Shown here one piece after another: positions 11,629 to 64,000 of a stretch of DNA of 64,000 nucleotides (positions are counted from its first letter, which is position 1; every line of letters begins with the position of its first letter). The DNA is taken from positions 8,236,501-8,300,500 of the forward strand of contig NC_088787.1 in assembly GCF_949628265.1 (NCBI RefSeq), written 5' to 3'. This stretch comes from Cloeon dipterum. Taxonomy: Eukaryota; Arthropoda; Insecta; Ephemeroptera; Baetidae. A program made the position numbers and the translations under genes. A model generated the notes under the pieces. The model was not told the DNA's origin and searched no databases. It saw only the letters and a program-made list of their open reading frames with translations.

Positions 11629-13910
11629 CTAAGCTGGCATGTTGGGGTTCGCGACGCCCAGCACTTGCATCTCGTTCGCATCCTCTTCCTCATCTGCTCT
11701 TAAGTTGTTTCTGAAGCCGAAGATCGACTTGTATATCGTTGTGACCAGCACGGCCGCAAACACCGGTCCTATCCAATAAATCTAAACCAAAATAATATAT
11801 TTTTATTTATTAAATAAATGTATTGTTTTATACCCAATGTTTGGTCCACACGCCGTTCCAAACGGCGGGGCCGAATGTCCTAGCTGGATTCATGCTCGGA
11901 CCGGTTCGGGAACCCTGTGAAGCACAAGAAAAGTTTCAGCTAGTTGGACGTTTAATTATAAATTTAAAAAACGGAATTATTGAAGGGTTTAAGTTGTTTT
12001 CTGACATTAAAACAACGAAATGTTCAGACGTTTCAAATTTTGTTTGAAGATTTGTTGATAAATATATAAAAATCAATGCTGCCTTGAGATTTATTTTCCC
12101 CATTTAATTAGAATTACTTCAATATTGAATACCACCAGTTTAGTCTCTATTCCTTAAGTTTCCTTGCGGAAAAATAAATAGAACACAAGAGGAATATAAT
12201 TATTAAAAGTTTTGATTTTTTAATTTCGTTTCTATATTTAGAGGTGTCAATTTTTATTTATAAATACGGCAGAATTCAACGGTTCGATACTTTTAATTTG
12301 GAAAAAATTTATAATAAATTTAATATTAACAATTATTACATAAATTTTAAATTAACAAGCTAGTCAAAATTGGAGCCGAAATCAAAATAAAGCTACTTAC
12401 AAAAACAATTCCTAGTGCGGTGATGCCCAAAGCAAATTGCGTGGGTAGGTTCTGGCTGTTGGGGTTCCTCGCGTCCCACGAAGAGCAGACGAGCAGAATG
12501 AGCATAGATGTTGCCACAAACTCCGTGCAGAAGGCGGAAAAAGTAGAGAGCTCCAGGTTGGGAACCGTGGTGCAGAAGCCGAAATCCTGATGCGAGTCTT
12601 CGCGAATGATGGCTGCAGGCGTTATCAACTAAAATACAATTCGTTTGTTAATAAATTGTACAAAAAAAATTAAATATCAAAGAAGAAACACATTTTGAGG
12701 CTCTATTAGAAAATTAATTTTAAAATATAAGAAAATATCTTACGGAAAGAGGAATCGGAAATAAATTAATGGAGAAACAGAAATAATTATTTTCTTCATA
12801 ATCTTTAAAATTGAGCTTTGTTTTTTGAATGAAATTAAAGTTTCAATTTAGCTCCCTCACAAGGTTAAAAATTAAGTCATAAATTAAAATTTGTTGAGCA
12901 GAGATAGATGTTGTGTGTATTTTGAATTTGCAGATTTGCAGGGTCATACCATAAGGATTGCGTATCCAGCGATGCCGCCGAAGATTTGCGACAGAATGTA
13001 GGCGAACATCCATTTCAGAGGGATTTCCTTTAAAATGACGGCGCAAACAGTAACAGCCGGATTCAGGTGGGCTCCACTTATGTGTCCAAAGATCTGAAAT
13101 AGGCAAATGCCATGAAAGATGTGGATGCAAATCAAATAACAACATAAAGACAATGTCATGTCACAAAATATTTAACACGTTAGAATCAGTCAAATCATAC
13201 AGCAAGAGCACCTCTTTCGAAATTACATATTATATTTAAATTATAGAATGCCCTATCAGGGAGAAATATTTCCTCGACGGACTCAATACGTTTATTTATA
13301 TCTCTAATATATTTTAAAAAAGAGTGTGAAACTCATCGTTACAACTTCGGGATATGTTATTTAAATGTAATGCAAATATAATTAACAACGGTCAGTAATA
13401 TAAAATTATTATAAAATATCTCACGTACTGTCTGATAAAAAGATCTTGCTATTTGAAAATTAATGTTAAAATAAAAAATCTAATTACTTAAAAAAAAAAA
13501 TTATAAATACATTAATGAAATGTTATTCTATTAATGCAAAAAATATTAGCAATAAATTTAAATTGCATATGAAAATAATATATTGGTTATTTTTTACTAA
13601 AACACAGTGTTATTTTTACAATGCAAAGTCCGCAAAACCTCAACTGCATTTATGATTCGTTTGTTTTATTTAATCCTGTGACACTTTTAGCTTTCAAAAC
13701 CACATTTTCAAATAATGCTTTTTACCTGGACGAGGATGCCGACGACTAGACCAAACGATAGAGACGTTATGACGGGCGATTGGAGCGCGTCTTTGTGCGA
13801 GAGGGCAGCAGTGCAGGAGGCGCAGCCGACTCCAACGAGCAGCGCGGTGGCCAAAAACTCGGCGAAGACCACCCGAAAGACGTTGGGTTTCCTCGACATC
13901 GCCTTCTTTC
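11629..13910 (-). CDS. Aquaporin gene 3, complete, 259 aa
   Basis: This is the tandem paralogue of gene 2. Coding exons are 13726-13899, 12950-13093, 12401-12628, 11834-11914 and 11629-11781 (stop TAG), all phase 0 with GT-AG borders at the same positions as gene 2. The start is the ATG at 13899, just after TTTCAG. NPA1 is in GHISGAHLNPAVTV and NPA2 in GPSMNPARTFGPAVWNG, the more canonical form compared with gene 2. Exon 3 encodes the same residues as in gene 2, while exon 1 has two extra residues (KDALQ loop) and the C-tail is 13 residues longer, ending NEMQVLGVANPNMPA. The constriction histidine again appears to be nonpolar. Introns are also alignable, so the duplication is fairly recent. 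Confidence 0.92.
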
Positions 13911-16436
13911 CTGAAAGAGCAAAATTTAAAATTAATGCCATTTTTCTAATATAAAATAAGGAACAATATGATCGGTCAGGCAAATAAACATTAATAATAA
14001 TTGCGAAATTTTTTACCCTCTTCCTCTTCTGCCCCACAAATAAGTGCCTTTGGGGGAGCAAGTTTTGCTCGTTCATATTGAGATTGGTTTAATAAATTGG
14101 CACATTTTCTACAGTGTTCCTCTCTTGCTACCCATCAATTTAATTACTCGGATCTGATCTATCTTTTGTTGGAGTTATGCCGAAAACGAACGCACATTCA
14201 CTCAGCCTGATTGATTTATTAATTATTCAATAAATTAATCTCGTTCATCGCTTTCAATCGGGATGAATTCCAGATTTTATCCTTTCTGTCCATTTGAATA
14301 ATTGTCTTCTAATTGTGAGCTTATGATGAATTCCCCAAAAGAAGTTTTTATAAAAATAAACTCAAACAGATGAAAGCATTTAGAAAATTCCGGTAATTTG
14401 AAATTAGTGATATTTTCCTCTGGACTGGCATCCCACTTTTAAAATTGTGAGCTTTGGTAAATTGCAGCTGGAGACATTTTTAGCTATTTACCAAATTAAC
14501 CTCACGGATTTTGACCAAAATTATGCAACACCCAAACAGCTTATTTCGAGCATCATTAATTAAATCATCCTCCACACATGATTTTTATTTTTAAATGCAG
14601 AAAAGATGTAGATACAAATAAATATTAGAGGGAAGGAAACCCTTACAATTTGATTGATTTTGACCCATGAGGTTTGAATAAGATTTATTTTTTCCTAAAT
14701 GTAATAATGCAGTTAAAAACGTTTATATTTAAAAAAAGAGAAAAAGGTAAATAATTATTTACTCTATCGAAAAAACCTGAATTATTTAATATTAATTGGA
14801 ATTTTTATGTTTCATTTAAAAATTCTTTAAATTTAAAACCTTAAAATTTTATCTGACAGACTCTGAAATTTCCTATGAGAGCACTCTAGTACCTACACCC
14901 AAGCAGCGTTTCTGATCCGCTCCAATCTCCTTGAATAATGCACATCCTCCATGTGCTCTGAGCTCTGATCCACCCATCTTATTTGCGAGTCACGTGCCGT
15001 ATAATATCTTCAGATCCTCAAAGCACAATTCGACTGAGCACCGTCAATAAACTGAATAAACTATTAGATAAATAATTATTTTAATTTTTTAAACGTCATC
15101 AAAACAACTCGTCTTGATTGAGCGCGCTTATTGCTCATGGACGTTAATCATTATTACACTGCTCTTTTTGATAAAAGCATTGATCGGTCTTTCTTATCTC
15201 AAATATCCTGCTGTTATGGTTTACATCCACACGGATTACAAAATCAATGGCAATAAACCGAGACGCACATGAGTGATTTGAGTGCATCTAAATGCAAATT
15301 ATCCGCGTGGCGCGCAATCAATGCAAATGCAAATACGGCCAAGCAGAGGCGCATACATTTAAATTGAATTATTTGCTCAGCCTCATTTGGCTGAACACCT
15401 GTTGTGCGCACGTACAAATCAAAGCAAACGCTCTTGCCTCAATTAACGCACGCGCGAAATATACGGCATTAATTATTCCCTATTTGTCGAGCGAGAGAGA
15501 GGAAATCGGCGCAGGTGCGCGAATTTTTCCCCGATTCCGGCACGCCTACTTTGATTCCGACAAAACAACAAAAGGTCAAACTCCAAGCGATAAATTTCGC
15601 AGATGCCACTGCTCTTTGGCTTATATTTAAAAAAATTAAACACCAAAAAAAACAGGAGATAATTTTCCTCGATAGTCTGATTAGAATTATTTAAGAAAAA
15701 TTGATAGTCAAATTTTAAATCTTATTTAGGAATTATTTATTACATAAGTGTTGAGTTCTTATCACTGAAATAATAAATTTGCACACTTCGTTCGTTGGAT
15801 AAAACATATCGCCAACAGTCAATATTTACCCTTTCAACAGCCATAAATTAATTTTCGCGTGACGCAACTATGCAATTTGGAAATGAATCTCGGTGATAAC
15901 AGCAAGCTTGAAGAATTAATTACTAAATTTCACGGTTGATTTTAATTGATTTAATTTGCCCTTTCAATAATTTTACACTAAACTTTGACAATTTATCTGT
16001 ATTTAACATTTAATTTTATTTTAATAAGTATTAATATAAACATCAAATAATAAACAGATAATTACTAATTATTTGCATTCTTGTTGTAAATAAATTTGTA
16101 CTATTAAATATGGGTTTAATAAAATATACATTTAATTTTATAATGATAGTAAATATATTAAAAGAATATAAATTATTTTTTCTCTTAGTTTATATAATTT
16201 CCGAAGAAATTGTTAACAATTTAACATTGAAATACCAGCTAGTTACTCAAATTTATAGATTAGGTACACAAATGTTCATAAAGAGTAACAATCCGATAAT
16301 TTCTTAGGTAAATTTCAACCCAATTTATTAGAAAAACATCTAATCCCGGCCTTGAAGAACCTTTATAAACTGGCTGATCACAAATTTAAAAATAATTGCA
16401 GGTTTTTTGGCACAGTTTTCGCAGCAGTTTCTTTAC
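13911..16436. other. Intergenic or intronic, no gene recognised
   Basis: AT-rich sequence without supportable exons. The right side may be intron of the unrecognised minus-strand gene whose exon 2 ends at 16437; no exon 3 with a convincing acceptor and motif was found here. A slightly GC-richer patch at 15290-15610 is open on the plus strand but looks random. Confidence 0.4.
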
Positions 16437-38200: not shown

Positions 38201-41200
38201 CATTTTGACATTAAATTTCCATAAAAATGCCTCATTAAGAAAACATTATTTTGCTCCAACCTCGTGCGGGGCAGGCGCGAGATGAATTAAGGCAATGTGA
38301 ATTTTATGATTAACGACCACGCTTGCGTATGTATCATCTCGAGCAGATCGCGCAAAATCGCGGTCAAGGCCGCGTCAAGAGCGTGTGTGCGTTTCTAATT
38401 TCGTGCGTTTTCGACCAGCAATGTCGGCGGCGGCGAGAGTTTCTGCATCTCGGCCAGCGCGGTCAACGAGGCCTTCAGACTGGCCAGGTCAAAGGTCGGC
38501 ATCTTCAGCGCTCCGCGGAAGCCTAGGACCTCGGTCGAGGAGGACCTGCTCGCCGAGGCCCTCCAGGAGACGACGAGATTGCTCAAGGGCAGGTGAGAAA
38601 ACTGACGATTTTTATGACAAGGAAACCTATTTTGATTTTTGAAAAGGATTTTTCTTTAAGTCATTTCATTGTTTCAGTCGGATGTGGGTATATATGGGGC
38701 AAAGTTGCTCCGCTGATTCGCAGTAAAATTATTAATGAATCATGTTCAATCAAATATTCAAATCAAAATTAATTAAATATAAAAAATAATAATATATTAT
38801 CGTGCATGAATGATCTGATAAATTGCCTTCAGAACAGTGACTTATATTTTTTGTAATGTGATTATTCTTTTTAGTTGAAAAGCAAAACTGACTGACAAGG
38901 TTGCAAATAACCCGCATTTTTTAAAAGCAGTGCATTGTTAAGAAAGGGGTTTTTAAATTTTTAACTGTTCCTTGCTGACTTGAAAATTTGGCAGAATAAA
39001 TTTTTGGAGAAATTGAGACAGCAAATAATTGCGATTTATACAAAATCCGCACAGTAGAAAAAATATTGACCACTGCGACCGTAAATTTTAGATTTTCATA
39101 GGGGGAAAATGGGATAAATCTATTTCTTGCATTTCTTGAGCAAGAAATTGGTAAAAATTGAGTGGTAAAAATCAGTGATGAAAAAAACCCTGCTGACTAA
39201 TCTAAATTGGCATTGACAATTCATTTAAAAAGACACCCAAAAACCACTGTTTACTGAAACCTGAAAAATAACATGATTTTATGCTCCTCATAAAACAAAT
39301 GTCTTTAAAATAAAACGTTTTTGATATGATTTATCCATTTATTTCCTCCAATTTGCAGATTCAAACTGACTGATGATGAAATCTGGGGCGGTCTTCCTCT
39401 CTTGGACACTTCCGAGACGGAAATCGTGGACTGGTGCCCCGACAGACTGTCCCTCAGGCGCACGTGTCCGCCCAGGCTGTCCCGCTACCGCTCCTACGAT
39501 GGCTCCTGCAACAACGAAGGGCCGCTCTCGTGGGCCCAAGGTGCCTCCATGCAGCCCTTTCCCCGAATGATTCCCCCCGTCTATGGAGATGGTGATTTTT
39601 TTTAATTCAATTTTGCGATTGGAGCTTGATTTAATTTTTTTGAAAAGGGGTCGGTCAGCCACGAAGGTCGGTCTCTGGCCGGCCGCTGCCCAACGCCCGC
39701 CTCGTGTCAGCCACAGTGCACCGCGACCTGGGATTCCACGACCACGCCGTCACCCTGATGTTCCTGGCCTGGGGCCAACTGCTGGACCACGATGTCACCT
39801 TTACTGCCGAAGCCAAAAGTGTGTCATTGTGATTGGCATTCCTTTTTTACATATTTAAAAAATAATATTTATTTTATCTTAAGAGCCCATTAATGTTTTT
39901 TTTAATTTATTTTTGAGCATTCTTTATTAAAGATATTAAAATTAATTTGAATTGAATTTCACCAGACATTAATTAGAGTATTAGAGTACTTTCCAGCTTG
40001 GAGTTTGCTTCAAAAAATATGCTTTTGAAACTAACAAATAATATGGGTGCTTAATTAAGTTTTGAATCATGCCAACGTAATTTTATATTACTGATTATCT
40101 TTCAATTGTTCGCAAAATTAATTTTACTTGCATATTATTCCATTTAATAAGATTAAATTCTGTATAATATTGAATTTTAATTTTATATTCTTTCAAAAAA
40201 ACCCTTACCCGCCAAGCTATTTGACTTTTCCTGTCTCAGATCCTGGTACAAACACGGAGCCGCAGTGCTGCGAAAACCCGCGAGCCAACCCAAACTGCGC
40301 CACCCTTACGGTGCCGTTCGACGACCCCTTCTACGCCAAGTACGGCCGACGGTGCATCGAGTTCATGCGGACGCCGGCGGCGCTGCGTCCCGGTTGCAGA
40401 CTCGGCACGAGGTCGCAGAACAACGAGCTCGCCCCGGCCATCGACGCCAGTTTCGTGTACGGCTCCACCATGCAGGTGGCCCGCTCCCTGAGACTGGGGG
40501 CTGGAGGACAGCTCGCCTCCCTGGACATCCTGCCCAGCGGCCTCAAGCCTCTGCTGCCGCTGAAAATCCGATTTCCGGACGACGGATGCACCAGGCCGTC
40601 GCAGGACATTTTCTGCTTCCTTGCAGGTTAATACCAAAATTTTTGCCAATTCATCAGATGCATAAGCCCTTGTTTGAAGCCACCAACAGATGGCGCCACC
40701 GTTTACTTTCGTAATAAATTTAATTTTAAGGCACTTCCGCTGCGATTTCAGACCAAATCCTGTCACTCTGCATTTTCTTCACTTTATGTGTTTTATTTTG
40801 AAGTGCTGAAAACCAAAATCAGTCCAGACATTCGCCGTAGAAGCGTTGGAAAAAATTTTACAATTCAAAAAATGGTTTTTCACTATTCTACAGCGATTGG
40901 CTTAACCGATTTTGGTTTTCAGCACGTCAGAAGAAAGCGTATTAAGTAAAAGAATGCACAGCAGCAGGATTGAGTTGGAAATCGCACCAAAAGTGTGTTA
41001 AAATTTAATTTATTGCTAAAGTATGCGGTGGCGCCATTTGTTGGTGGTTTTGAACAACTTGTGTTATAGGAAACTTTATTTCTATACTTTTACATGAAAT
41101 ATTAATATAGATTTAATTTTTTATTTTGTGTTTTTAGGGGACAACAGAGTGAATGAGCAGCTGATGCTGACAGTTTTGCACACCGTCTTCGTTCGCGAGC

Positions 41201-53200: not shown

Positions 53201-56200
53201 GAGGAGCAATCATAAAAAATATCTTAGTCCTTTTATTTTTTCAAACAGATTTTACAAATGGTGGACCAGAGAATTTAAGTTTCCCCGGCTGTGGAAAGAG
53301 AAGAATATTCAAAAGAGAGTCTTTGGATTTGGAGCCAGCAACCATTGTGAAAGGATTCGACGCTTCATCCGACCCAGCTGGCCACCCTTGGCACGCGGAA
53401 ATCAGATACGCAGACAATTCATCCAAGCACGGATTCTGTGGGGGATCTCTGATTTCTAAACGAGCTGTTTTGACAGGTTTTTAGTTTTGTTTTAACTGGC
53501 GTGTTTAGTAAAATTAAGAAGCTTTTCAAGATTTAATTAAAACCGCACCCTTTGAATCAGCGGGAGCCAGATGTACGATAAAATTGGTTCCCAGTGCGCA
53601 GATCCAAGATGGCGTGTGATTGTGGGAAACAAAAAGCTCTATTTGGATTACCGTACGAGTGTCAAGAGTTTGTTTTTACGATCCAAAAGACACAATTAGC
53701 ACAAGTAATGCAAATTTTGTCACAATATTGACCAAAACTTGGCTCTTTTCGCGCTTTTTCGCGTGACCGTTTTTCGCGCCACTCTCCACCGGACGCCATA
53801 TCTGCGCGTCGCACGAATCTGGACCCCGCTGCTTTAAATAATGAAAATATTTTCTGATTTAAAAATAATTTTCTTCCGTTCAGCTGCTCATTGCTTCGTT
53901 ATTGAGAATGTAACCGCAAACGACGTAATTGTAACCCTTGGCCTGTCTGATGTGCGCAAGAGGAATAAAAAACATGTACAATCACAAACAGTAATTACCG
54001 CAAATTTCTTGAAAAATAACTTCAAAAACATAGTTCAACAGCCATCACGATTGGTTATCCACCCTGACTTCAATCTGGAGAGCAACAGCAATGATATCGC
54101 TTTGGTTCTGTTCCCTCGCGACTTTAAAATTACAAAAAAGGTCATCCCAATTTGTCTGTGGAACGAGGACTACAGCTTGGACCGAATTTTGGATTTGACA
54201 GGAGTGGTGGGTTGTGAAGTAAAATTATTGCACTGCGTGGACACGAATAAACATCCTCCAGGTGTTTGGTTGGGGATATCTGGCGAATCACAAACAACCG
54301 AACGTTTTGCAGGCGGCCAACATGCCGATTCGGTCCTACAAAGATTGCTTTTTGCAGCGAAGGCAGTTTTTCGGGCCCTACATGAAGCCCGGATTGAACT
54401 TCTGTGCCGGCCATTCAAATGGTTGGTAAATCTCCTTATTTAAAATCATTTAATATATTGTTTTAAATTCTGCAGGAACGACTACGTGTGAAGGAGACAG
54501 CGGTGCTGGTCTCGCCATAATGAAAAACGACATTTGGTTCATTCGCGGGGTGGAAAGCTTCGGTCGGGGAGAAATCTTGACGCTGAGCGACGGCTCAAAG
54601 AGGAATGTTTGCCAGACAGGCTTTTACACTTTGTACACTGACCTTGGGAATTACATCAAGTGGATCGTGGAGAATGTTCAGGATATGAATTAAAATAAAT
54701 TAAACCATTTTCTTATAAACGCTCTCCAATCGATACAATTAATCAAGGTTAGAAGTATTGATTAAATGATCGAATTAAATCTTTATATAAATTTAACAAA
54801 ATTATTTCTAATGTGCACATATCGTTTAATAATGTAAAACAAGACTTTGCGTGTTTGAGAAACTGCATGTTAAAAGGAAAATGTTAACTGTGGTAGTGAA
54901 AAAGAAATATATTGAGGATTTTAAATATATCTTCTCACTAAAATGATGTCTATTTTTGAGGGGGCTTGGGCTAAATTTAGACAGGTGTGGGATGAACTTA
55001 GATGGGTTTGGAGCCAATATAAACGGCCTTAAACCCAATATTTTCCTTACGAATTTCTTGCCAATTAAATCTAATTCACCGAGTTTGCAATTTTGTACAT
55101 GATTTCTTGTTCCAAGAGGATCTTTAAGGTTTAAATCCCATGAGCTGTAAAAAAATTGTTTCAAATTCTATTTTTATTTAAATGTATTTTTCATTGCGAA
55201 AAACCATCGGTGTTTCATTTTTATTTTTAATTTCATCTTGAAAGTATTTTTTATTTAACTGATTTTAAAAAACGCGTGTTTTACCGAACCTTGTCTACAA
55301 TTATTCGGTTTTATCGCTTTTAATATTGAGTCGCGTATTTGGTTGACTCACCCTCGTCCATGGAGACCTGTCGGAAGTGCAGCAGGTCGGACTTGCCACC
55401 GACGAGCACGCAGGGCACCGGACAGTTGGCCCCTCTGCGCGCCTCCTTGACCTGCTGCTTGGCCAGCCGCAACATCTCGAAGGACAGCTTGTCCGTGATC
55501 GAGAAGACGAACACGAAGCCGTCGGCCCAGGCAGCCGTCTCGCTGCTGCACAGTTGCTGCTGGACGCCGCCCCCGCCAGAAGAGGCGGCCATCCTTGCCG
55601 GACAGGAGTCTACGATCTCGAAAACAACCGTGTCGCCGTCCACCAGCGCCTCATGCTTGTACCTCGCCTCTGCAAAAAAAAAAAAAACACAAGATAAAGG
55701 GAGCAATTTTAATTGGAGTAAAAAATTAATAAAATTTTAATCAAAAATCAAGGTGATTAAAAAGAAATAGATTCAAAATTACAATTAGTAGAGCTGAACA
55801 TTATAATACACTTCCTCGGAAATTTGGATCGAGTATCTTTTCCCAACTAAATTTTAAAATATTGGGAATACAAGGAATTTAAGAAAATGGAAAATAAACA
55901 AATTTATTCCTTTGAACCATGACCTAGGTATTGACAAAATTTTATTATGCTCAGAACAATATTTTACGCCATTTTCAAAATTTTATGTATCGCTGTAACC
56001 TTGACAAAGGGTTGGATTTGGTTTTTGCGTCAGTTTTTTAGTGATTATTTCAACACTCAGATCTGTGTGTCATTGGGAGAAGTTACTGGGAAAAGGCGCT
56101 GTCACAGCATTGTGACGATAGTGACACAAATAATTGTTCTCACTATGCCAAAATTGTCACCACCGAAGCTATGGTTCTAGTTGCAAAATCCGCACACCAT

Positions 56201-57568
56201 TCGACTCGTCTCAACCTTTACTAGAAAGCCGAAGAGTTTTGAGGGTGATCAACTCGCATCCCCCTTCCATCCCATTCATTTAGTAACGATAGAAATCACG
56301 TCGCTTTGCACTTTCAGCTAACTCTTTTTTTTATTCGCCGACATTACAGCGAGTATATCATGGCTTTTTTAATATTTTAATTACTATAATGTTATAATGA
56401 TTCTATGAAATAAATTAAAATAAATTTTTCAATCAAAATTATCTTAAATTAATTAAAATCAACACCAAACTACCACCTTTTCCTTTTTAGAGAGCGAAAC
56501 GTTAAAATTAATAATCCTAATAGCAGAACCAGAAATTTCTTCGAATTTTTACCAATAAGCTTTTAATACGCGGAGGTAGAAAAATGCAAATTGGAGTTGG
56601 TGGCGATCAGATGACCCCCAGAAACCATTCGCTGTTTATAGGCGATTGAGACAAGTCAAACGGTGTTCAGTTTTTGTATATTTTAATACTCAAATTCAAA
56701 ATTTAGTGATGACAGTCTAGCAAAAATTGATCCCTTTTTTGGTAATATTGCAAAACTTGATTAGTCTGTTAATTAAACCACGTTTATTGTGTGAATTAAT
56801 CTTGTAATTAATTATATTACAAAAGTTATTATATTTTTTTTTAAAATGCAAATGAATCCGAAAATCTAATCATCAAAAGCTTAACATTTTACATTTTTAA
56901 AAGCTCGTCAGGCAGGAAATATTTTTCCATGAAAAATAATTTTCGCATATTTAATAACGAAAAACTGTCTATACCGATTGACTTTAAAACGTCTTAGACC
57001 GACTAAATTGCTCCGAAAAAAGAATCTAAAAATAGTCAACTACGTACTAAACCATAAAAAAATAACAGCCGTAAGTGTAATAAGATTAAAAGTTAATTTG
57101 ACATACTGAAATTTCCATTAAAGAAATACTTAATACATTTAAAAATACTGAAATTATATCACCAATATTCTGTTACAGACGCACACTTTAACCAGATAAA
57201 AAGTGTGGAGCGTTGTTTAACGAAATTAAATTCTTCTTATAAAATAATGTTTTTATTTTAGAAACTTTAATATAATAATATTTTCTTAAAACATCGCAAA
57301 ATGAACTGTTACGCGAAAAAATATACCTCAAGCGATAAAAATGTCATTTTGATTTACGCGCGGTGACTCACCGTTTTGATGGTCGTATTCGCCGATATAT
57401 CTTTTGGTCAAAAAGCGAACAGTCAGCGCTGCAAAGAAAACAGTTGACACAATTTAGCACTGCGCCGTGACAAAGCGTGGGAAACTGACCGGTTTTTCCG
57501 ACGCCGGAGGCTCCGATGACCGCGACTTTCACTTCGGTCAGGCCGGATTTTTTTCTGCGAATGTTCAT
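44212..57568 (-). CDS. Ras-like protein of RERG/RASL type with degraded G motifs, 230 aa
   Basis: Four exons: 57490-57568, 57372-57428, 55352-55669 and 44212-44450 (TGA), with GT-AG borders and each junction in phase 1. The start MNIRRKKSGLTEVKVAVIG leads into an intact P-loop, GASGVGKT (residues 19-26), and RFLTKRYIGEYD, closely like RERG/RASL12. Later motifs are lost. The switch I Thr is Gln44 (YDHQN). The DTAGQE switch II motif is DSCPAR (67-71), followed by a Gly/Ser insert near 75-80. NKxD is GKSD (137-140). SAK is AAA (167-169). There is no C-terminal CAAX; the tail is basic then ends KSDSALP. GTP hydrolysis is therefore doubtful. The last intron (10.9 kb) holds a complete protease gene on the other strand. 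Confidence 0.9.
44540..44756 (+). repeat. Partial arm of the long inverted-repeat family
   Basis: Contains GACACTGCGAAATCCTGGA, TGTCTCCTTACTTGAAATCT, AGAGTTTCCC and GCTGTTGGACAGAT in the same order as 25075-25460, then stops early. It lies in the last intron of the Ras-like gene. Confidence 0.7.
45187..45304. repeat. Hairpin-bearing short repeat, copy 2
   Basis: Sister of 43745-43862. The stem is kept as 8 bp (GCAACCCG at 45227-45234 with CGGGTTGC at 45253-45260), although the loop sequence has changed. Flanks are unrelated AT-rich DNA. Confidence 0.65.
47598..47870. mobile_element. hAT-type MITE, copy 3
   Basis: A 273-base copy in the same orientation as copy 2, starting CAGCGGGGACCAGATTC and ending CTGGACCCGCTG. 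The flanking 8-mers GAAAAACT (47590-47597) and GAAAAACC (47871-47878) match at 7 of 8 bases. Confidence 0.85.
48397..48415. repeat. CGGT tetranucleotide microsatellite
   Basis: Four tandem CGGT units plus CGG, inside a GC-rich patch of the Ras-like gene's last intron. Confidence 0.8.
49700..49860. other. GC-rich element with TATA box, possible LTR fragment
   Basis: A sharply GC-rich stretch includes inverted words GGGTACCC and CCCGGTGCGCGGGG. It is followed by TATAAAAG (49831-49838) and a TCAGC initiator-like site at 49851-49855. This promoter-like order and foreign composition suggest a solo LTR or other transposon promoter, but no ends or target duplication could be defined. Confidence 0.25.
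51162..51192. promoter_or_regulatory. Forkhead-type motif cluster
   Basis: The perfect 16-base palindrome TTTGTTTATAAACAAA (51162-51177) is followed by CAAATAAACAAATAAA, giving several forkhead cores (TGTTTA or TAAACA) within 31 bases. It lies 510 bases upstream of the protease ATG. Such words also arise by chance in AT-rich DNA. Confidence 0.25.
51703..54693 (+). CDS. Two-domain S1A serine protease (degenerate domain plus intact domain), about 602 aa
   Basis: Ten coding exons: 51703-51808, 51999-52145, 52200-52327, 52379-52555, 52604-52734, 53006-53196, 53249-53476, 53884-54206, 54262-54421, 54476-54693 (TAA). A strongly hydrophobic N-terminus (YFVLVVVLLFLLILEV) is a signal peptide or anchor. 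The first domain (about 45-300) is protease-like (PWRVWIRGK, CRGILFSKTAVIT, ISPICLF) but lacks a catalytic His in place and any GDSGG. The second domain is complete: CGGSLISKRAVLTAAHC (His372), NDIAL (Asp440), CEGDSGAG (Ser539). The residue before the IVKG neo-N-terminus is Thr, not Arg, and the S1-pocket position is Thr533, so it is not trypsin-like. The 54-base intron 52146-52199 is in frame; without splicing the product would be 620 aa. Nested inside the Ras-like gene's last intron, opposite strand. Confidence 0.85.
53558..53831. mobile_element. hAT-type MITE, copy 4
   Basis: A 274-base copy in copy 1 orientation, starting CAGCGGGAGCCAGATG and ending TCTGGACCCCGCTG. It is flanked by CTTTGAAT (53550-53557) and CTTTAAAT (53832-53839), which match at 7 of 8 bases. 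It fills most of intron 7 of the protease gene (53477-53883) without disturbing the splice sites. Confidence 0.88.
54694..54699 (+). terminator. Poly(A) signal of protease gene
   Basis: AATAAA directly abuts the stop codon TAA. This very short distance is compatible with a compact 3'-UTR; no other canonical signal is nearby. Confidence 0.5.
54700..55351. other. Intronic spacer, nothing recognised
   Basis: AT-rich remainder of the Ras-like gene's last intron between the nested gene and exon 3. Confidence 0.4.
55670..57371. other. Intron 2 of Ras-like gene, nothing recognised
   Basis: AT-rich intron with a long T-tract before the exon 3 acceptor (plus-strand poly-A at 55673-55687). Short ORFs lack family motifs. 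Confidence 0.4.
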
Positions 57569-58915
57569 GGCGGTCGTCGAATCAGATTGTCTTCTTGTCA
57601 CGCAGACACCATCGCGCGTGTGAAGAGCAGACCACCGACTGGCGCGCGCTGAAAACACGTCTGCTTCGCTTGTTTCCGAATCCGAAAATAGACAAATCTC
57701 TCAGACCGCTCACTGCCGCCACCAGTCAAAACAGCGAATCTCCAATCGAAATAATATTGGGACCTCTGCTTTTTGATACTTCGAAACAAACGCATCTATA
57801 TTTTTTTCTTATAGCATCATAAACTAAATTAATTATAAAAAGTGACAAACTAAATGTATCTACTTAAGGTAATCGAAAATTATTAAATCGATTAAATCTC
57901 CATTCTGCTACAGCAATTTTTATTTTAAATTGATGTTTTAAATAAATGTTCATAAGCTATTTATATTTAACGCATTTACTTTGACAAATATGTGACGTTC
58001 TTTGAATATTTATTTTTTCTTGACTTATTTTATTGGGCAGGAATCATACAATTTAAAGCCATTTTCAAACCATGTTGAAAAGACGTCTTTTTAAATCCCT
58101 CAATAAGTGAATTTAAGCAGCCTAAATACAGCCAAAAATCTGTTCAAAAGGGCAAAAAGCTCTACTACTCAAGGGGAAATTTTTAGAGTTTCAAAATATT
58201 CAGGTACAGTAAAGTATACAACCCGAAGTATTTTGAAATCATTTTCCAGCAAGGCAATTTCCTAAATATAAATTAGGCATCCATTGCAAGCTTGTTGATG
58301 ATCTGATAAATTCAGTATAATTATATTTTTAGGGAGAAAAATGAAATTTTAAATTTTATTTGGTGTCATTTTTTAATTCTAAACGCTTTCTAAATAGAAA
58401 AAGGTATCTTCCAATTGTTAAACATTTTTCAATAAGGGATTTGGTTAGGTTCTTTTGCCACGTTTGCTAAACAAGGAGCTGTTAAATTTAGACAGCAAAT
58501 AAACGTCATGTATACACAAAATTTTATTTGATATCTCAAGTGAAAAACTTTATTTGAAACATAAAACCTCAATAAAAGACGTTGAAGTGAAAAAAAAATT
58601 TAATTTTTAAAAACGGACGCATTCAAAACCTTAAATTACGTGAAAAATCCAAAACCATCGAAATTTGACTTTTTTTCCTTAAACACATTCTAAAAAATTA
58701 AAATGTGACAAAATTTTAACAAATTCACAACTATTTATTTCAAGCCCAAAATTTGTGTCATCATTTGTTTTCCCAAACGTTGATGCGGTGGTGTTAGTAG
58801 AAACTATGGAATTTTTTGTTTTGCTACATCCGATTTACACCGTCACCGTTTGCGCTGTTGGAAAATATTCCATAGTTTTGTAGTCCTCATGTGCAGTTGA
58901 ATTTCCCATGGCAAC
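57569..58915. other. Divergent intergenic region between Ras-like and lectin-OBP genes
   Basis: Bases 57569-57730 are GC-richer and likely the 5'-UTR and promoter of the minus-strand Ras-like gene. The middle is AT-rich. From about 58555 the sequence is duplicated at about 62870-63207 as the upstream region of the lectin-OBP paralogue. No TATA box is visible before either lectin ATG; both copies share ATTCCATAGTTTTGTAGT-like or very similar words at about -50. Confidence 0.5.
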
Positions 58916-59800
58916 ATGAACGCACAATTTTTCATACCTTGCCTGGTCACCTGCTTGATTGTATTTTTTTTGGAAACCAGTGTAATTCGAAACTTTAATT
59001 TAACACATTTCAGCTTCATTTGGGAATTTCAAAACGACCATCGAATAATTTGGAGAGACACAAGAGTAATCCGATAATTTATTTTTATACTGCTTGTCAT
59101 GACAGAGTAACTTAATTTCTAGAACGAGTGCAAAGCAAGAGCAGCAGACAGATTATAATCAAGTGCTGTGGAAAAAATTCGTGCTGGAATCTAATATCCA
59201 AGACGAAGAGCAGAACAAATTCAACAATTTCATCCATGCGAGAGACGCCTCAAGCTCAGACGGAAATTTCATCCACAAGGCCAAAACCAACCATCTTAGA
59301 GGAAAGCTCACAATATGAGAGCACCGACGTTATTTCAGAAACAGATTCCTTGACTTTAGTTCCTTCAACTGAAAATGAGCCAACATCAAATTTAATAGAA
59401 ATTGTCTCAACGGCGAGCTCCACTGATTCTTTTCTTCCTTTAAATCAGACTTTTTCTACTCCAATTCCAGAGACTAGGACGGTTCCTCTCTCCACAACAG
59501 CCTCCGTCGCATCTTCTGTTGTGGAGCAGACCACAATAAAAATCTCACATGTCTCAAATTCGACCAGTGCCAGCACGCAAAAACAAAATATTTCTTCTAC
59601 AAGCACGCCAATCTTAACTGAGCAGGGCAGCTCCACCACGTCAACGATGAGCACCCCTCAAACCGAAGTTTCTGACGCGATGGAAAACAGCACCACGGTT
59701 GAGTCTGTAGAAGCTGTTGTTCAAACAGACCCATCTGACATTGTAGTGATCGATAATGCTTCACCAGTGCCGTTGATCGGTCCGGTATTGTTATACATTT
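58555..59800. repeat. Tandem duplication unit, left copy
   Basis: Upstream sequence, signal exon, exon 2 and the Ser/Thr-rich exon 3 of the lectin-OBP gene are repeated at about 62870-63998. Noncoding upstream DNA is alignable, so the duplication includes the likely promoter. Confidence 0.8.
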
Positions 59801-62696
59801 TCGAATTAAATAATATTTTTAACAGCTTAATCCTGCCTATGAACACGTGTGCGAGAAAAATGTATGGATTTAATAATTTTTAGAAAAGATCAACCTGAAT
59901 ATATTTTATTAGCTTTCCCTTTTTGGTCCAGACGGACAACTGTTAGGTACACCTTCCAACATTTTAAAATTATGGATTTTTAGTAAATAAATTATACAAC
60001 ATCTGCTTATCAATTTAGAAGCCGAATATTACGGAGCTTGGGAAGTAACTTGCGGGAGCCTCTATCTATTTGGAAGCCAAGTTGTAAGTGACATGCATAC
60101 ATTTTTATTTTTTAAATTTCAATTAACACCATTAATTAAAAGTTAAGCTGGCAAGGAAACTTCAACTTTTGCTGCAGTTTAGGCATGCTTCCGTTGACGG
60201 TGGAAGATGATTTTAAACGTTCTTGTCTGCAAGATTTCATTGGCGGTTCATAATTTAACCATTTTTATTCCTTAGCAATATATGTGGTTCTAGGTGTGAA
60301 ATGGCCTCACAGCTCCATGTATTGGAGCTCAGGCAAACGGCTGTCCGGAAACACTTTTACGTGGTACGACAAGCGCGTCACTTTCAGCCCAACTCTGTGG
60401 AAAGCCAACCAACCAGACAATGTCAAAGGAACAGAAAACTGCGTCATGCTGAGGATTTTCAAGTTTGATTTAAACTCAATAAAATTGGAAGATAGGCACT
60501 GCGACAAACTGGCAGTTTCGGCTTGTGTGGTAAGTCTTGACATATCTTGAAGAAGAAAAATGTTTAGAAAATATTTGTAGGGACCAACTACGCCGGCACC
60601 AAAATGCTCTTTTCCATTGTGTGCAAACATTGACTGCAAGAAAAATGTAAATTCAAATAATTAATATAAGGAAATATAATTTGTTTTTGTTTTTAGGATT
60701 CTTTTTTCACAAATCTGGTTGAAAATCCAGCTCACTATTTGACTGGTTTGTAATTAATAATTCTTTCAAATGTATTATAAAATCGTAAACATGAATTCCA
60801 GATCCAAAAAATCACGGAATTTGGATAGAAGTCAACCATAGGACGTTTATGTTTAGCTTTGAAAGCGACGTGCGGACGGTAAATACCGACAAGTTATCCT
60901 GATCATAAAAATAATATACAATTTTCTTTAAAAAGTTTGAAGAAGCTTATCAAGCCTGTTGTGCACTCGACTTCAAGCTGCTTAGTCTCCACCAAGGATA
61001 CAAATTCAGATTTCTTTCGGCTGCTTTTAAAAGTGTTTTCTTTTTATTGTAAAAGAATGAATCAAATGGTCGGTTTACTAGATCTTACAATAAAATCTGG
61101 CAAATTTTGGACATCAGGCAGTGATGTTGGTTGCGAAGGCGTTTTTGGCTTTTGTTCCACGAACAGGACATTGATGATGAATGAGACAATCTGGCTGCCT
61201 AATCAACCGGACAACTTGAAGGGAAACGAACACTGCTTAGCAATTAACGCGTTGAGCAATTACGCGGCTGCTCTGAGCAATGACAACTGTGACCTTAAAC
61301 TGAGATATATTTGCGAAGTAATTGATTTTTGTTTTTAAACAATTAAATAAAATTATTTTAAAAGGGCAGGGCATCAACTCAGGCGAAAGCTCTGGAGCTG
61401 GAATGTGCTGCAGCTTCCAATCTCACAGATGGTACAGAGCTGATTTAAAATTCAAAATTACTTCTAACAAAGCAGAGAACAGCTGAAATTCCTATGGCGT
61501 TTGCCAGCCCAAATGGAAGCGAAAAATTCAAGTGTTTCATGACTTGTTACGGAGAGAATGCAAACCTTGTATATTATTTGTGTTTAATTGCTTTAAAAAA
61601 ATTAAACGATACTATTCTAGTACGCCAATGGAAAAATGGTTGACTCCCGGATTTTGCCTTTTGTGCCTTACATTTCGGCAGGAAGTGATTCCTCCATGAA
61701 GGAGTACTATGGCACCTTAGACCAATGCAAACAAAACAGTCGTAAATTCATGGCTTAATTATCGAGTTTCATAAAAAAACATTTTATTTTAAGGAAAATT
61801 GTACGGCTGCAATCGAGTGTCCAATTTTGTCGCTTGCAGTCAAACAAAGTCGCCAAACCTCACTGAAAAAATGATCAACGTCGTAGAAACAACTATTTCA
61901 GTATAAAGCTCTATTTTGTTTAAACAATTGATTTTCATTATTCTGTCAGGATAAAAGGTCATGGCTACCACCTGTTTCAGAGTCAATTTGTCCCAACGCT
62001 TATGAAGAAATTATGAATGTATGAAAAATTTGATATTTTTCTTAAAATTGAAGCCGTTTTATAGGAGGACCACAGGACTTTCTTTGACTCGCAAACAAAA
62101 AGTATTCATTATATTGATCTCTTTACTCCGTTTGAAATTTTGTGTCAAACAGTGAGGGCAAATTATACCTCTTACCGACTCGTAATTAGCACTGCGTGCG
62201 GGAAAAAATTTATCCTTCTCTCAATTGAACGAGCAGTAACCTCATTTCTTTATATTCTTATTATTTAGGATTTGGCATATGTAATTAATTTCAAGCCGCC
62301 ACTGACGACCCTGGGGCAGGCAATGACCGAGTGCGCAAAGTGGGGACTGCGTCTCGTCACTATTGACACAAAGACAAAACTGGACTGCATGATCAACGCA
62401 AGCATTCGTATAGTTTAATCCACTTCCGAGTTAATCTGCTTTTTACCGATCAAAATTTAATAGAGGTTGATCTTGGTCTCTCAACCTACCCGGAAAAGTT
62501 CTACGTGATTGCCGCTATCTTGAACAGACCCCTAAAGGCGAAGAACTGCTTTTCTGATGTTCCATTTGGCTTGGACAGCTGGATTGCAAACAACATTTCG
62601 ACCGCGACAGGGCCATTTGTCGTTGTCAATTTTTCCAAAAAATTCGCCACTACTGTGGGTGGTTCTTTTAAACATATTATTTGTGAAACGTTTTAA
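58916..62696 (+). CDS. Mucin-lectin-lectin-OBP-lectin fusion protein, about 868 aa
   Basis: Secreted chimera. Exons: 58916-58960, 59014-59065, 59123-59779, 60019-60083, 60143-60245, 60276-60529, 60581-60646, 60697-60745, 60802-60878, 60936-61032, 61082-61317, 61365-61431, 61483-61568, 61621-61738, 61794-61900, 61950-62018, 62065-62151, 62269-62407, 62464-62696 (TAA). All phases fit. Signal MNAQFFIPCLVTCLI; Ser/Thr-rich stalk to about 250; C-type lectin domain 1 (252-392) with YWSSG, WKANQPDN, ENCV; domain 2 (415-567) with FWTSGSD, WLPNQPDN, YICE. Then a classic OBP domain with Cys 581, 607, 611, 654, 663, 672 (C-X25-C-X3-C-X42-C-X8-C-X8-C), and a lectin-like end (about 743-868) closing FKHIICETF without QPD. 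QPD suggests galactose-type sugars. Uncertain: intron 1 extent, the exon 3 donor (weak GTCCGG), and a possible 15-base microexon at 59932-59946. Confidence 0.82.
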
Positions 62697-62869: not shown

Positions 62870-64000
62870 AAAACTTGATTTAAAGAATAAAACCTCAATA
62901 AATGAAGTGGAAGTGAAAAAAATACAAACCATTTAAAATCGAACGCCTCATATATCACGTCAAAAATCCAAAACCACAAAAAAACACATTCATAAAATTT
63001 CAAGTGGCCCAAAAATTCAAAACCTTTGATTTCGAGCCAAAACATTGTGTCAACATTCGCTTTCCAAAACGTAGATGGTAGTGTCGTTAGTTGAAATGAC
63101 GGAATTTTTGTTTTTCGACATCCGGTTAACATCGTCCACGTTCGCGCAGTTGGAATATAATCCATAGTTTTGTAGTTCGCATATGCAGTTCAATTTTCCA
63201 TGGCAACATGAACGCAAAAATTTTCATTACTCTCCTGGTTGCCTGCTTGATTGTATTTAATTCTGAAACCAGTGTAATTCCAAACTTTAAATTAACACGT
63301 TTCAGCTTCATTTGGGAATTTCAAAACGGCCTTCGAATAATTTGGAGAGGCACAAGAGTATAATATACTATATTTCTAAATTTATTATGATAGAGTAATG
63401 AATATTCTAGAACAAATGCAAAGCAAGAGCAGAAGACAGATAATAATCCAGTGCTGTGGAAAAAACTCGTGCTTGAATCTTTTATCCAAGACGAAGAGCA
63501 GAACAAATTCTACAATTTCATCAATGCGAGAGACCACTACTTACGCTATGACGACAAGGCAAAAACCAACCAGCTTGGAGAAAAGCTCACAATATGAGAG
63601 CACCGACTTTCTCCCAGAAACAGATGCTGTGACTCTGGTTCCTCCAACTGATAATGAGCCAACAACAAATTTAATAGAAACAAATTCTCTTGAAATTGTC
63701 TCAATTGCCTCGACAGCTAGCTCCACTGATTCGTTTGCTCCCTTCAATCAGACTTTTTCTACTCCGACTCCAGAGACTATGAAGGTTCCTCTCTCTTCGA
63801 CAGCATCTATTGCTTCATCAGTTGTGGAGCAGAGCACAACGCAAATCTCGCAAATCTCAGATTCGACAAGTGCCAGCACGCAAAATCAAGAAAACAACAC
63901 GACGATTGAGTTTGTAGTTAAAGCAGACCCACCTGACGTAGCTGTGGTTGATAATATTTCCCCAGTTCCATTGATTGGTCCGGTATTGTTCGATTTTCGA
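62870..64000. repeat. Tandem duplication unit, right copy (cut by window edge)
   Basis: Aligns with 58555-59800. The unit length is about 4.3 kb, one whole lectin-OBP gene. The copy continues past the window. Confidence 0.8.
63208..63977 (+). CDS. Lectin-OBP paralogue, 5' part only
   Basis: Exons 63208-63252 (MNAKIFITLLVACLI signal peptide), 63306-63357 and 63411-63977 match the first three exons of the upstream gene with the same phases. Exon 2 differs from its sister by three third-position changes and is identical as protein (LHLGISKRPSNNLERHK). The Ser/Thr-rich exon is 90 bases shorter, in frame; the missing residues lie in the distal part of the stalk (near QNISSTSTPIL and STMSTPQTEV in the first copy). 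It ends at the same ATTG|GTCCGG donor-like site. Lectin and OBP exons, if present, are beyond the right edge. Confidence 0.8.

Follow-up and report, generated by a model that had tools for sequence, protein, structure and literature searches.

The window analysed here is a stretch of 64,000 nucleotides of the Cloeon dipterum genome (C2:8236501-8300500), taken from an assembly of 190 Mb in 10 contigs, five of which are large (33-43 Mb). On the forward strand, at 58916-62696, lies a gene that almost certainly encodes a lectin carrying an odorant-binding protein (OBP) domain in the middle of the protein. The gene is known from DNA as a gene model only, obtained by splice-site reading together with an alignment of four tandem copies; it has 20 exons and an 867-aa product, and all 19 introns have GT-AG borders. 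The domain order is a signal peptide, a Ser/Thr-rich stalk, two C-type lectin domains (CTLD1 and CTLD2), the OBP domain and a degenerate third lectin domain (CTLD3), as laid out below.

58916..58979, +, exon 1: start codon and signal-peptide-like hydrophobic stretch (KD peak of 2.07 close to the N-terminus); uncertain join to exon 2
59123..59784, +, exon 2: CCGKNSC motif and mucin-like stalk, 36% Ser+Thr (copy alignment, composition)
59913-59946, 60019-60083, 60143-60245, 60294-60529, +, exons 3-6: CTLD1 with QPDN (Lectin_C 17.6 bits alone, below cut-off)
60581-60646, 60697-60745, +, exons 7-8: Pro/Cys linker (copy alignment, splice sites)
60802-60878, 60936-61032, 61082-61317, +, exons 9-11: CTLD2 with QPDN (Lectin_C 30.7 bits alone; dN/dS 0.03-0.26)
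61365..61431, +, exon 12: OBP domain, Cys1 (copy alignment, Pfam, splice sites)
61483..61568, +, exon 13: OBP domain, Cys2-X3-Cys3 (copy alignment, Pfam, splice sites)
61621..61741, +, exon 14: OBP domain, Cys4 (copy alignment, Pfam, splice sites)
61794..61900, +, exon 15: OBP domain, Cys5-X8-Cys6 (copy alignment, Pfam, splice sites)
61950-62018, 62065-62101, +, exons 16-17: fast-evolving linker (copy alignment, dN/dS, splice sites)
62153-62235, 62296-62407, 62464-62696, +, exons 18-20: degenerate CTLD3-like domain and stop codon (splice sites; no Pfam match)
63212..64000, +, start only of tandem copy 2, cut by the window end (copy alignment)

Some exon borders were tried and dropped. An end of exon 1 at 59065 gives a phase mismatch with exon 2, and 58979 was used with uncertainty; exon 17 as a single long exon was abandoned and an intron placed, since indels between copies break the shared frame. 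For exon 19, a start at 62269 fails in frame or acceptor in copies 2-4, and a start at 62293 lacks a preceding AG, which is present before 62296 in all four copies. The whole-protein Pfam scores, the scan for QPDN and glycosylation motifs and the seven-copy comparison reported below used 62293 and thus carry one extra CTLD3 lysine.

Elsewhere in the window, the forward strand holds an animal haem peroxidase exon (40122-40631, Pfam 89.7 bits) and a trypsin-like serine protease fragment (53838-54443, 25.1 bits). The reverse strand holds an aquaporin-like (MIP) exon (13708-14088, 25.2 bits, cut-off 25) and a Ras-family GTPase exon (55320-55736, 37.5 bits). Farther upstream on this strand, a frame at 57368-57700 contains a GASGVGKT motif and looks by eye like the first exon of the GTPase; in Pfam, it matches only DUF5558, below the cut-off.

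With a Lectin_C cut-off of 22.6 bits, CTLD2 passes alone and CTLD1 does not, while CTLD3 has neither a Pfam match nor a QPD-type motif. Scored whole, the window protein gives Lectin_C at 38.9 bits in two stretches beside PBP_GOBP at 29.5 bits in one. QPDN occurs at residues 349 (CTLD1) and 526 (CTLD2), and 17 N-glycosylation motifs are present. A scan of the whole window protein found no hydrophobic segment after the N-terminus as strong as the N-terminal one. The CCGKNSC block (59123-59200), which follows the signal peptide, has 34 genome matches at E <= 1, the window cluster included. The 20-exon in-frame model and the Pfam matches bear out the central claim of the earlier note on this DNA, that a mucin-like stalk, lectin heads and an OBP domain are fused in one protein. 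The note further held that the OBP exons join in frame with QPD lectin exons on both sides; the in-frame joins to CTLDs stand, but the QPD in CTLD3 does not.

The OBP block consists of exons 12-15 and spans 381 nt, exactly 127 codons; it is flanked by a phase-0 intron on either side, the arrangement that a shuffled module should show. The Pfam search that the note had proposed returned PBP_GOBP (PF01395) at 34.1 bits (E 3.1e-8) on the spliced 127 aa, the gathering cut-off being 22 bits; an earlier hand-joined block gave 36 bits (E 8.1e-9). NCBIfam gave no match. Applied exon by exon over the whole genome, PF01395 gave one match, which reflects the shortness of the exons and does not amount to one OBP gene. 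All six cysteines are present, in the pattern C-X25-C-X3-C-X42-C-X9-C-X8-C. The spacings X25, X3, X42 and the final X8 had been read correctly from the start, whereas the C4-C5 spacing had been taken as X8 because an arginine codon divided between two exons was missed.

The match could in principle have arisen by chance in a helical, Cys-rich linker, which would agree with the low confidence of a fold prediction from the single sequence (mean pLDDT 40) and with a phmmer search of the single window domain against PDB that reached only E 0.038. However, a profile of 13 OBP sequences recovered OBPs as its top PDB matches (best 5dic, E 3.5e-11), PBP_GOBP is matched by all 13 aligned OBP domains at E <= 0.01, and the cysteines are invariant in relatives that share 19-41% identity with the window domain. 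A chance match is, on this evidence, vanishingly improbable. All four OBP domains tested singly also score above the PBP_GOBP cut-off.

The window gene belongs to a cluster of four forward-strand tandem copies and three inverted, diverged copies within about 42 kb. Spliced alignments show the order mucin-CTLD1-CTLD2-OBP-CTLD3 in all seven, although for the inverted copies the reading of stalk and CTLD3 is less secure, and intron positions agree across the seven in the CTLD2-OBP part. In the inverted copies, the OBP domain shares 37-43% identity with that of the window gene and retains all six cysteines. Between the four forward-strand copies, dN/dS (Nei-Gojobori) of the OBP exons was 0.18-0.34 in 6/6 pairs, and we conclude that these exons are under purifying selection. 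Values for CTLD1 (0.22-0.28), CTLD2 (0.03-0.26) and CTLD3 (0.20-0.34, computed with one extra codon) are accompanied by 0.32-0.67 for the stalk and 0.24-1.33 for linker exons 16-17. The stalk exon of copy 3 (L025, C2:8306110-8310060) is interrupted by a stop codon, and exon 1 of copy 4 (L026, C2:8312380-8316320) has lost 1 bp from its T-run; at least one of the two may be a pseudogene, or their first exons may differ.

The earlier note had treated the fusion as one odd gene. This reading does not survive a genome-wide search: lectin-OBP fusions form a genome-wide family, and on the five large contigs no fewer than 130 OBP places are accompanied by a CTLD match. Searches with fused-type OBP exons (115 + 95 rows) yielded 143 places, and the OBP-like matches on other contigs sit just after CTLD matches. 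Against a first list of CTLD matches (139 of 150 rows, 11 rows of other window-cluster exons having been dropped; 5 more matches existed), 68 of the 143 OBP places lie within 2.5 kb downstream of a CTLD on the same strand, with none upstream and none on the opposite strand. Random placement gave a mean of 0.15 pairs, and shifts of 3.5-7 kb gave 1-24, the latter because the genes are clustered. When 150 matches to an exon of locus L069 (described below) were combined with a subset of the first list, at least 130 of 143 places had a same-strand CTLD match no more than 2.5 kb upstream. Taken singly, many of the OBP rows are weak (E up to 10); the argument rests on the CTLD-OBP pairing. A CTLD match is missing at 13/143 places; the one of these that was read, L070 (C4:8664k), does hold a CTLD end.

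The converse search led to a similar picture. Among 30 loci cut around the best CTLD2 matches (L057 being the same gene as L034), 26 had an OBP score of at least 171, compared with 107 for the top reversed-query control, though at four of the 26 (L034, L040, L054, L057) the query came from the same gene. At the four others, no OBP score exceeded that top control; scores against each locus's own control were 104/82 (L046), 99/86 (L056), 78/77 (L048) and 87/94 (L041). These four loci are possibly losses, pseudogenes or ancestral forms. OBP-like fragments are seen at L046 and L056. Across 25 loci, the distance matrices of OBP and CTLD2 are correlated (r 0.82, permutation p 0.0001), which joint descent of the two domains would predict; tandem clusters raise r, and the CTLD fragments at L042 and L044 are poor. 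The same domain order was read at six loci, C4:31080k, C4:31178k, C1:8288k, C1:17478k, C5:25358k and C2:34698k, of which C4:31178k was read as open frames only and C1:8288k and C1:17478k have a ragged CTLD3 part. By eye, L032 (C4:31174001-31183000) and L033 (C4:31077001-31086000) are very similar lectin-OBP genes that point in opposite directions about 97 kb apart and may stem from a recent inverted duplication.

L068 and L069 had looked unpaired at first; when read, each showed a single intronless open frame that covers the CTLD end and runs on into the OBP start as far as Cys1, the other OBP cysteines coming in later exons. The L069 protein exceeds both Pfam cut-offs, at 32.5 and 24.7 bits, and L068 passes for PBP_GOBP (40 bits) but falls below the cut-off for Lectin_C with the part tested (17.2 bits). 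With the L069 exon as query, at least 103 of the 150 matches scored, out of 320 candidates, extend stop-free from query residue 7 or earlier to residue 94 or later; they are spread over C1 (43), C4 (39), C5 (9), C3 (7) and C2 (5). Since the OBP part of this query amounts to only about 20 residues, the later exons matter: a later OBP exon match lies within 2.5 kb downstream at 85/103 loci and upstream at none, and the remaining 18 have no later OBP exon among the matches listed. Where CTLD and OBP start share one frame, no splice prediction at the CTLD-OBP border is needed to establish the fusion.

These loci also bear on whether an adjoining lectin gene and OBP gene were wrongly joined, a concern that arises from the window gene being modelled from DNA only. 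The introns flanking the OBP block measure 47 nt (61318-61364) and 49 nt (61901-61949), so short that a promoter, polyA site or signal-peptide exon would hardly fit. Moreover, the domain order is kept in seven copies, and CTLD and OBP start stand in one frame at 103 loci. Two separate genes are thus very unlikely. As for a free-standing OBP, the window domain is embedded in the 867-aa model, lacks its own signal peptide and is preceded by the 47-nt intron; the single PBP_GOBP stretch likewise argues against a two-OBP-domain protein.

As to function, our suggestions draw on the secreted-type start, the stalk with 36% Ser+Thr and the two CTLDs with QPDN. The fusion protein may be secreted to an exposed surface or fluid, such as gill, antenna, gut or haemolymph, where Ca2+-dependent binding by the stalk and lectin domains would hold it on mucus, cuticle or microbial glycans. 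The OBP pocket could then take up a small hydrophobic or amphipathic molecule, and a water-borne cue or a microbial lipid would in this way be caught on a glycan-bound scaffold. As a mechanism, such glycan anchoring with ligand capture by the OBP pocket, in a sensory or immune setting, is put forward tentatively, as more doubtful than probable. The co-capture of glycans and lipids, or the sensory role, that the note had proposed is likewise no more than a suggestion. Overall, a secreted lectin-OBP fusion family with glycan-anchored ligand capture is the explanation that we favour, with modest confidence.

The OBP domain may instead have become a structural spacer or a disulphide-stabilised hinge that has lost ligand binding, in keeping with its position between CTLDs with short linkers and with a mean pairwise OBP identity of only 0.40 among 25 loci. 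Against such a role, the six-cysteine pattern is kept in 31 of 32 extracted OBP rows. Counted as distinct sequences, these amount to 27 of 28; no extra Cys falls inside the match in 23 of the 27, and misjoined models account for part of the remainder. Together with the matches of all 13 aligned domains to PBP_GOBP, this leads us to regard a mere spacer as improbable.

Sugar binding itself may not be universal in the family, given that the CTLD2 motif varies: EPN occurs at L042, L052 and L053, QPN at L055 and L059, and none was seen in CTLD2 at L043, L068 and L069. Such variable sugar motifs, in a large, clustered and diverging family, would suit a secreted pattern-recognition protein whose CTLDs bind microbial sugars, with family size reflecting an arms race and the OBP domain binding the lipid part of microbial glycolipids or stabilising the protein. 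Insect C-type lectins are known immune proteins, which also speaks for this reading. Nevertheless, dN/dS of OBP and CTLDs is below 1 in the four close copies, and positive selection is not shown; we consider an immune role rather unlikely, if a serious competitor to glycan-anchored ligand capture.

The domain resembles classic insect OBPs (PF01395) in its six cysteines, their classic spacing, the Pfam score and the PDB profile matches. Unlike them, it is embedded between lectin domains and does not bring its own signal peptide. By comparison, two-domain OBPs and D7 salivary proteins likewise carry an OBP domain in a longer secreted protein, and the D7 long form 6v4c is among the PDB matches of the OBP profile, but there the OBP domains are joined to each other and not to C-type lectins. 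Immulectin-like insect multi-CTLD lectins are of secreted type with tandem CTLDs; the window protein shares both features, has QPD in two of its CTLDs, and adds an OBP domain between CTLD2 and CTLD3 as well as a long Ser/Thr-rich stalk. We found no description of a lectin-OBP fusion in the open-access literature, though one may have been published elsewhere.

The number of OBPs, taken to be small free carriers, has been read as a measure of chemical sensing. Known OBPs are described as secreted proteins that stand alone, with a length of about 120-170 aa (PMC13205551). C. dipterum was reported to have 191 OBP genes, 167 of them complete, the largest insect set as of 2020, in an assembly of 180 Mb, and its gills to express 82 of the 167 complete genes (PMC7250882). 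The main text of that report treats the 191 as OBP genes, and the word lectin is absent from it. By comparison, another mayfly, Parafronurus youi, is reported to have only 10 OBPs of 135-252 aa, with a signal peptide in all full-length ones; the word lectin is likewise absent from the available text of that study, whose filters could have let fusions escape (PMC13205551). Four OBPs were found in a damselfly (PMC5381652), and the available parts of PMC13317027, PMC8977481 and PMC11491810 add nothing on lectin-OBP fusion. Set against the 191 published genes, the at least 130 lectin-paired OBP places found here suggest, in a comparison by counts, that the reported set may consist mostly of lectin-OBP fusions. 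We think it probable that it does, and that these fusions arose from an OBP module inserted into a mucin-CTLD gene which was then amplified to more than 130 copies.

If so, the "OBPs" of the gills would be glycan-anchored capture proteins and not free odorant carriers, and both the mayfly OBP counts (191 against 10 in P. youi) and the idea of gills smelling with OBPs would need rereading. Here, well over a hundred genes have the OBP domain built firmly into a lectin scaffold, and the family illustrates clearly how a phase-0 domain module can spread together with the genes that host it. Because the OBP queries were of the fused type, our counts say nothing on the number of free OBPs. An apparently ordinary OBP gene lies at L031 (C3:3625359-3625665), where no same-strand lectin frame was seen by eye in 9 kb; two further, weak matches to this ordinary-looking OBP were obtained, at E 1 and 1.5.
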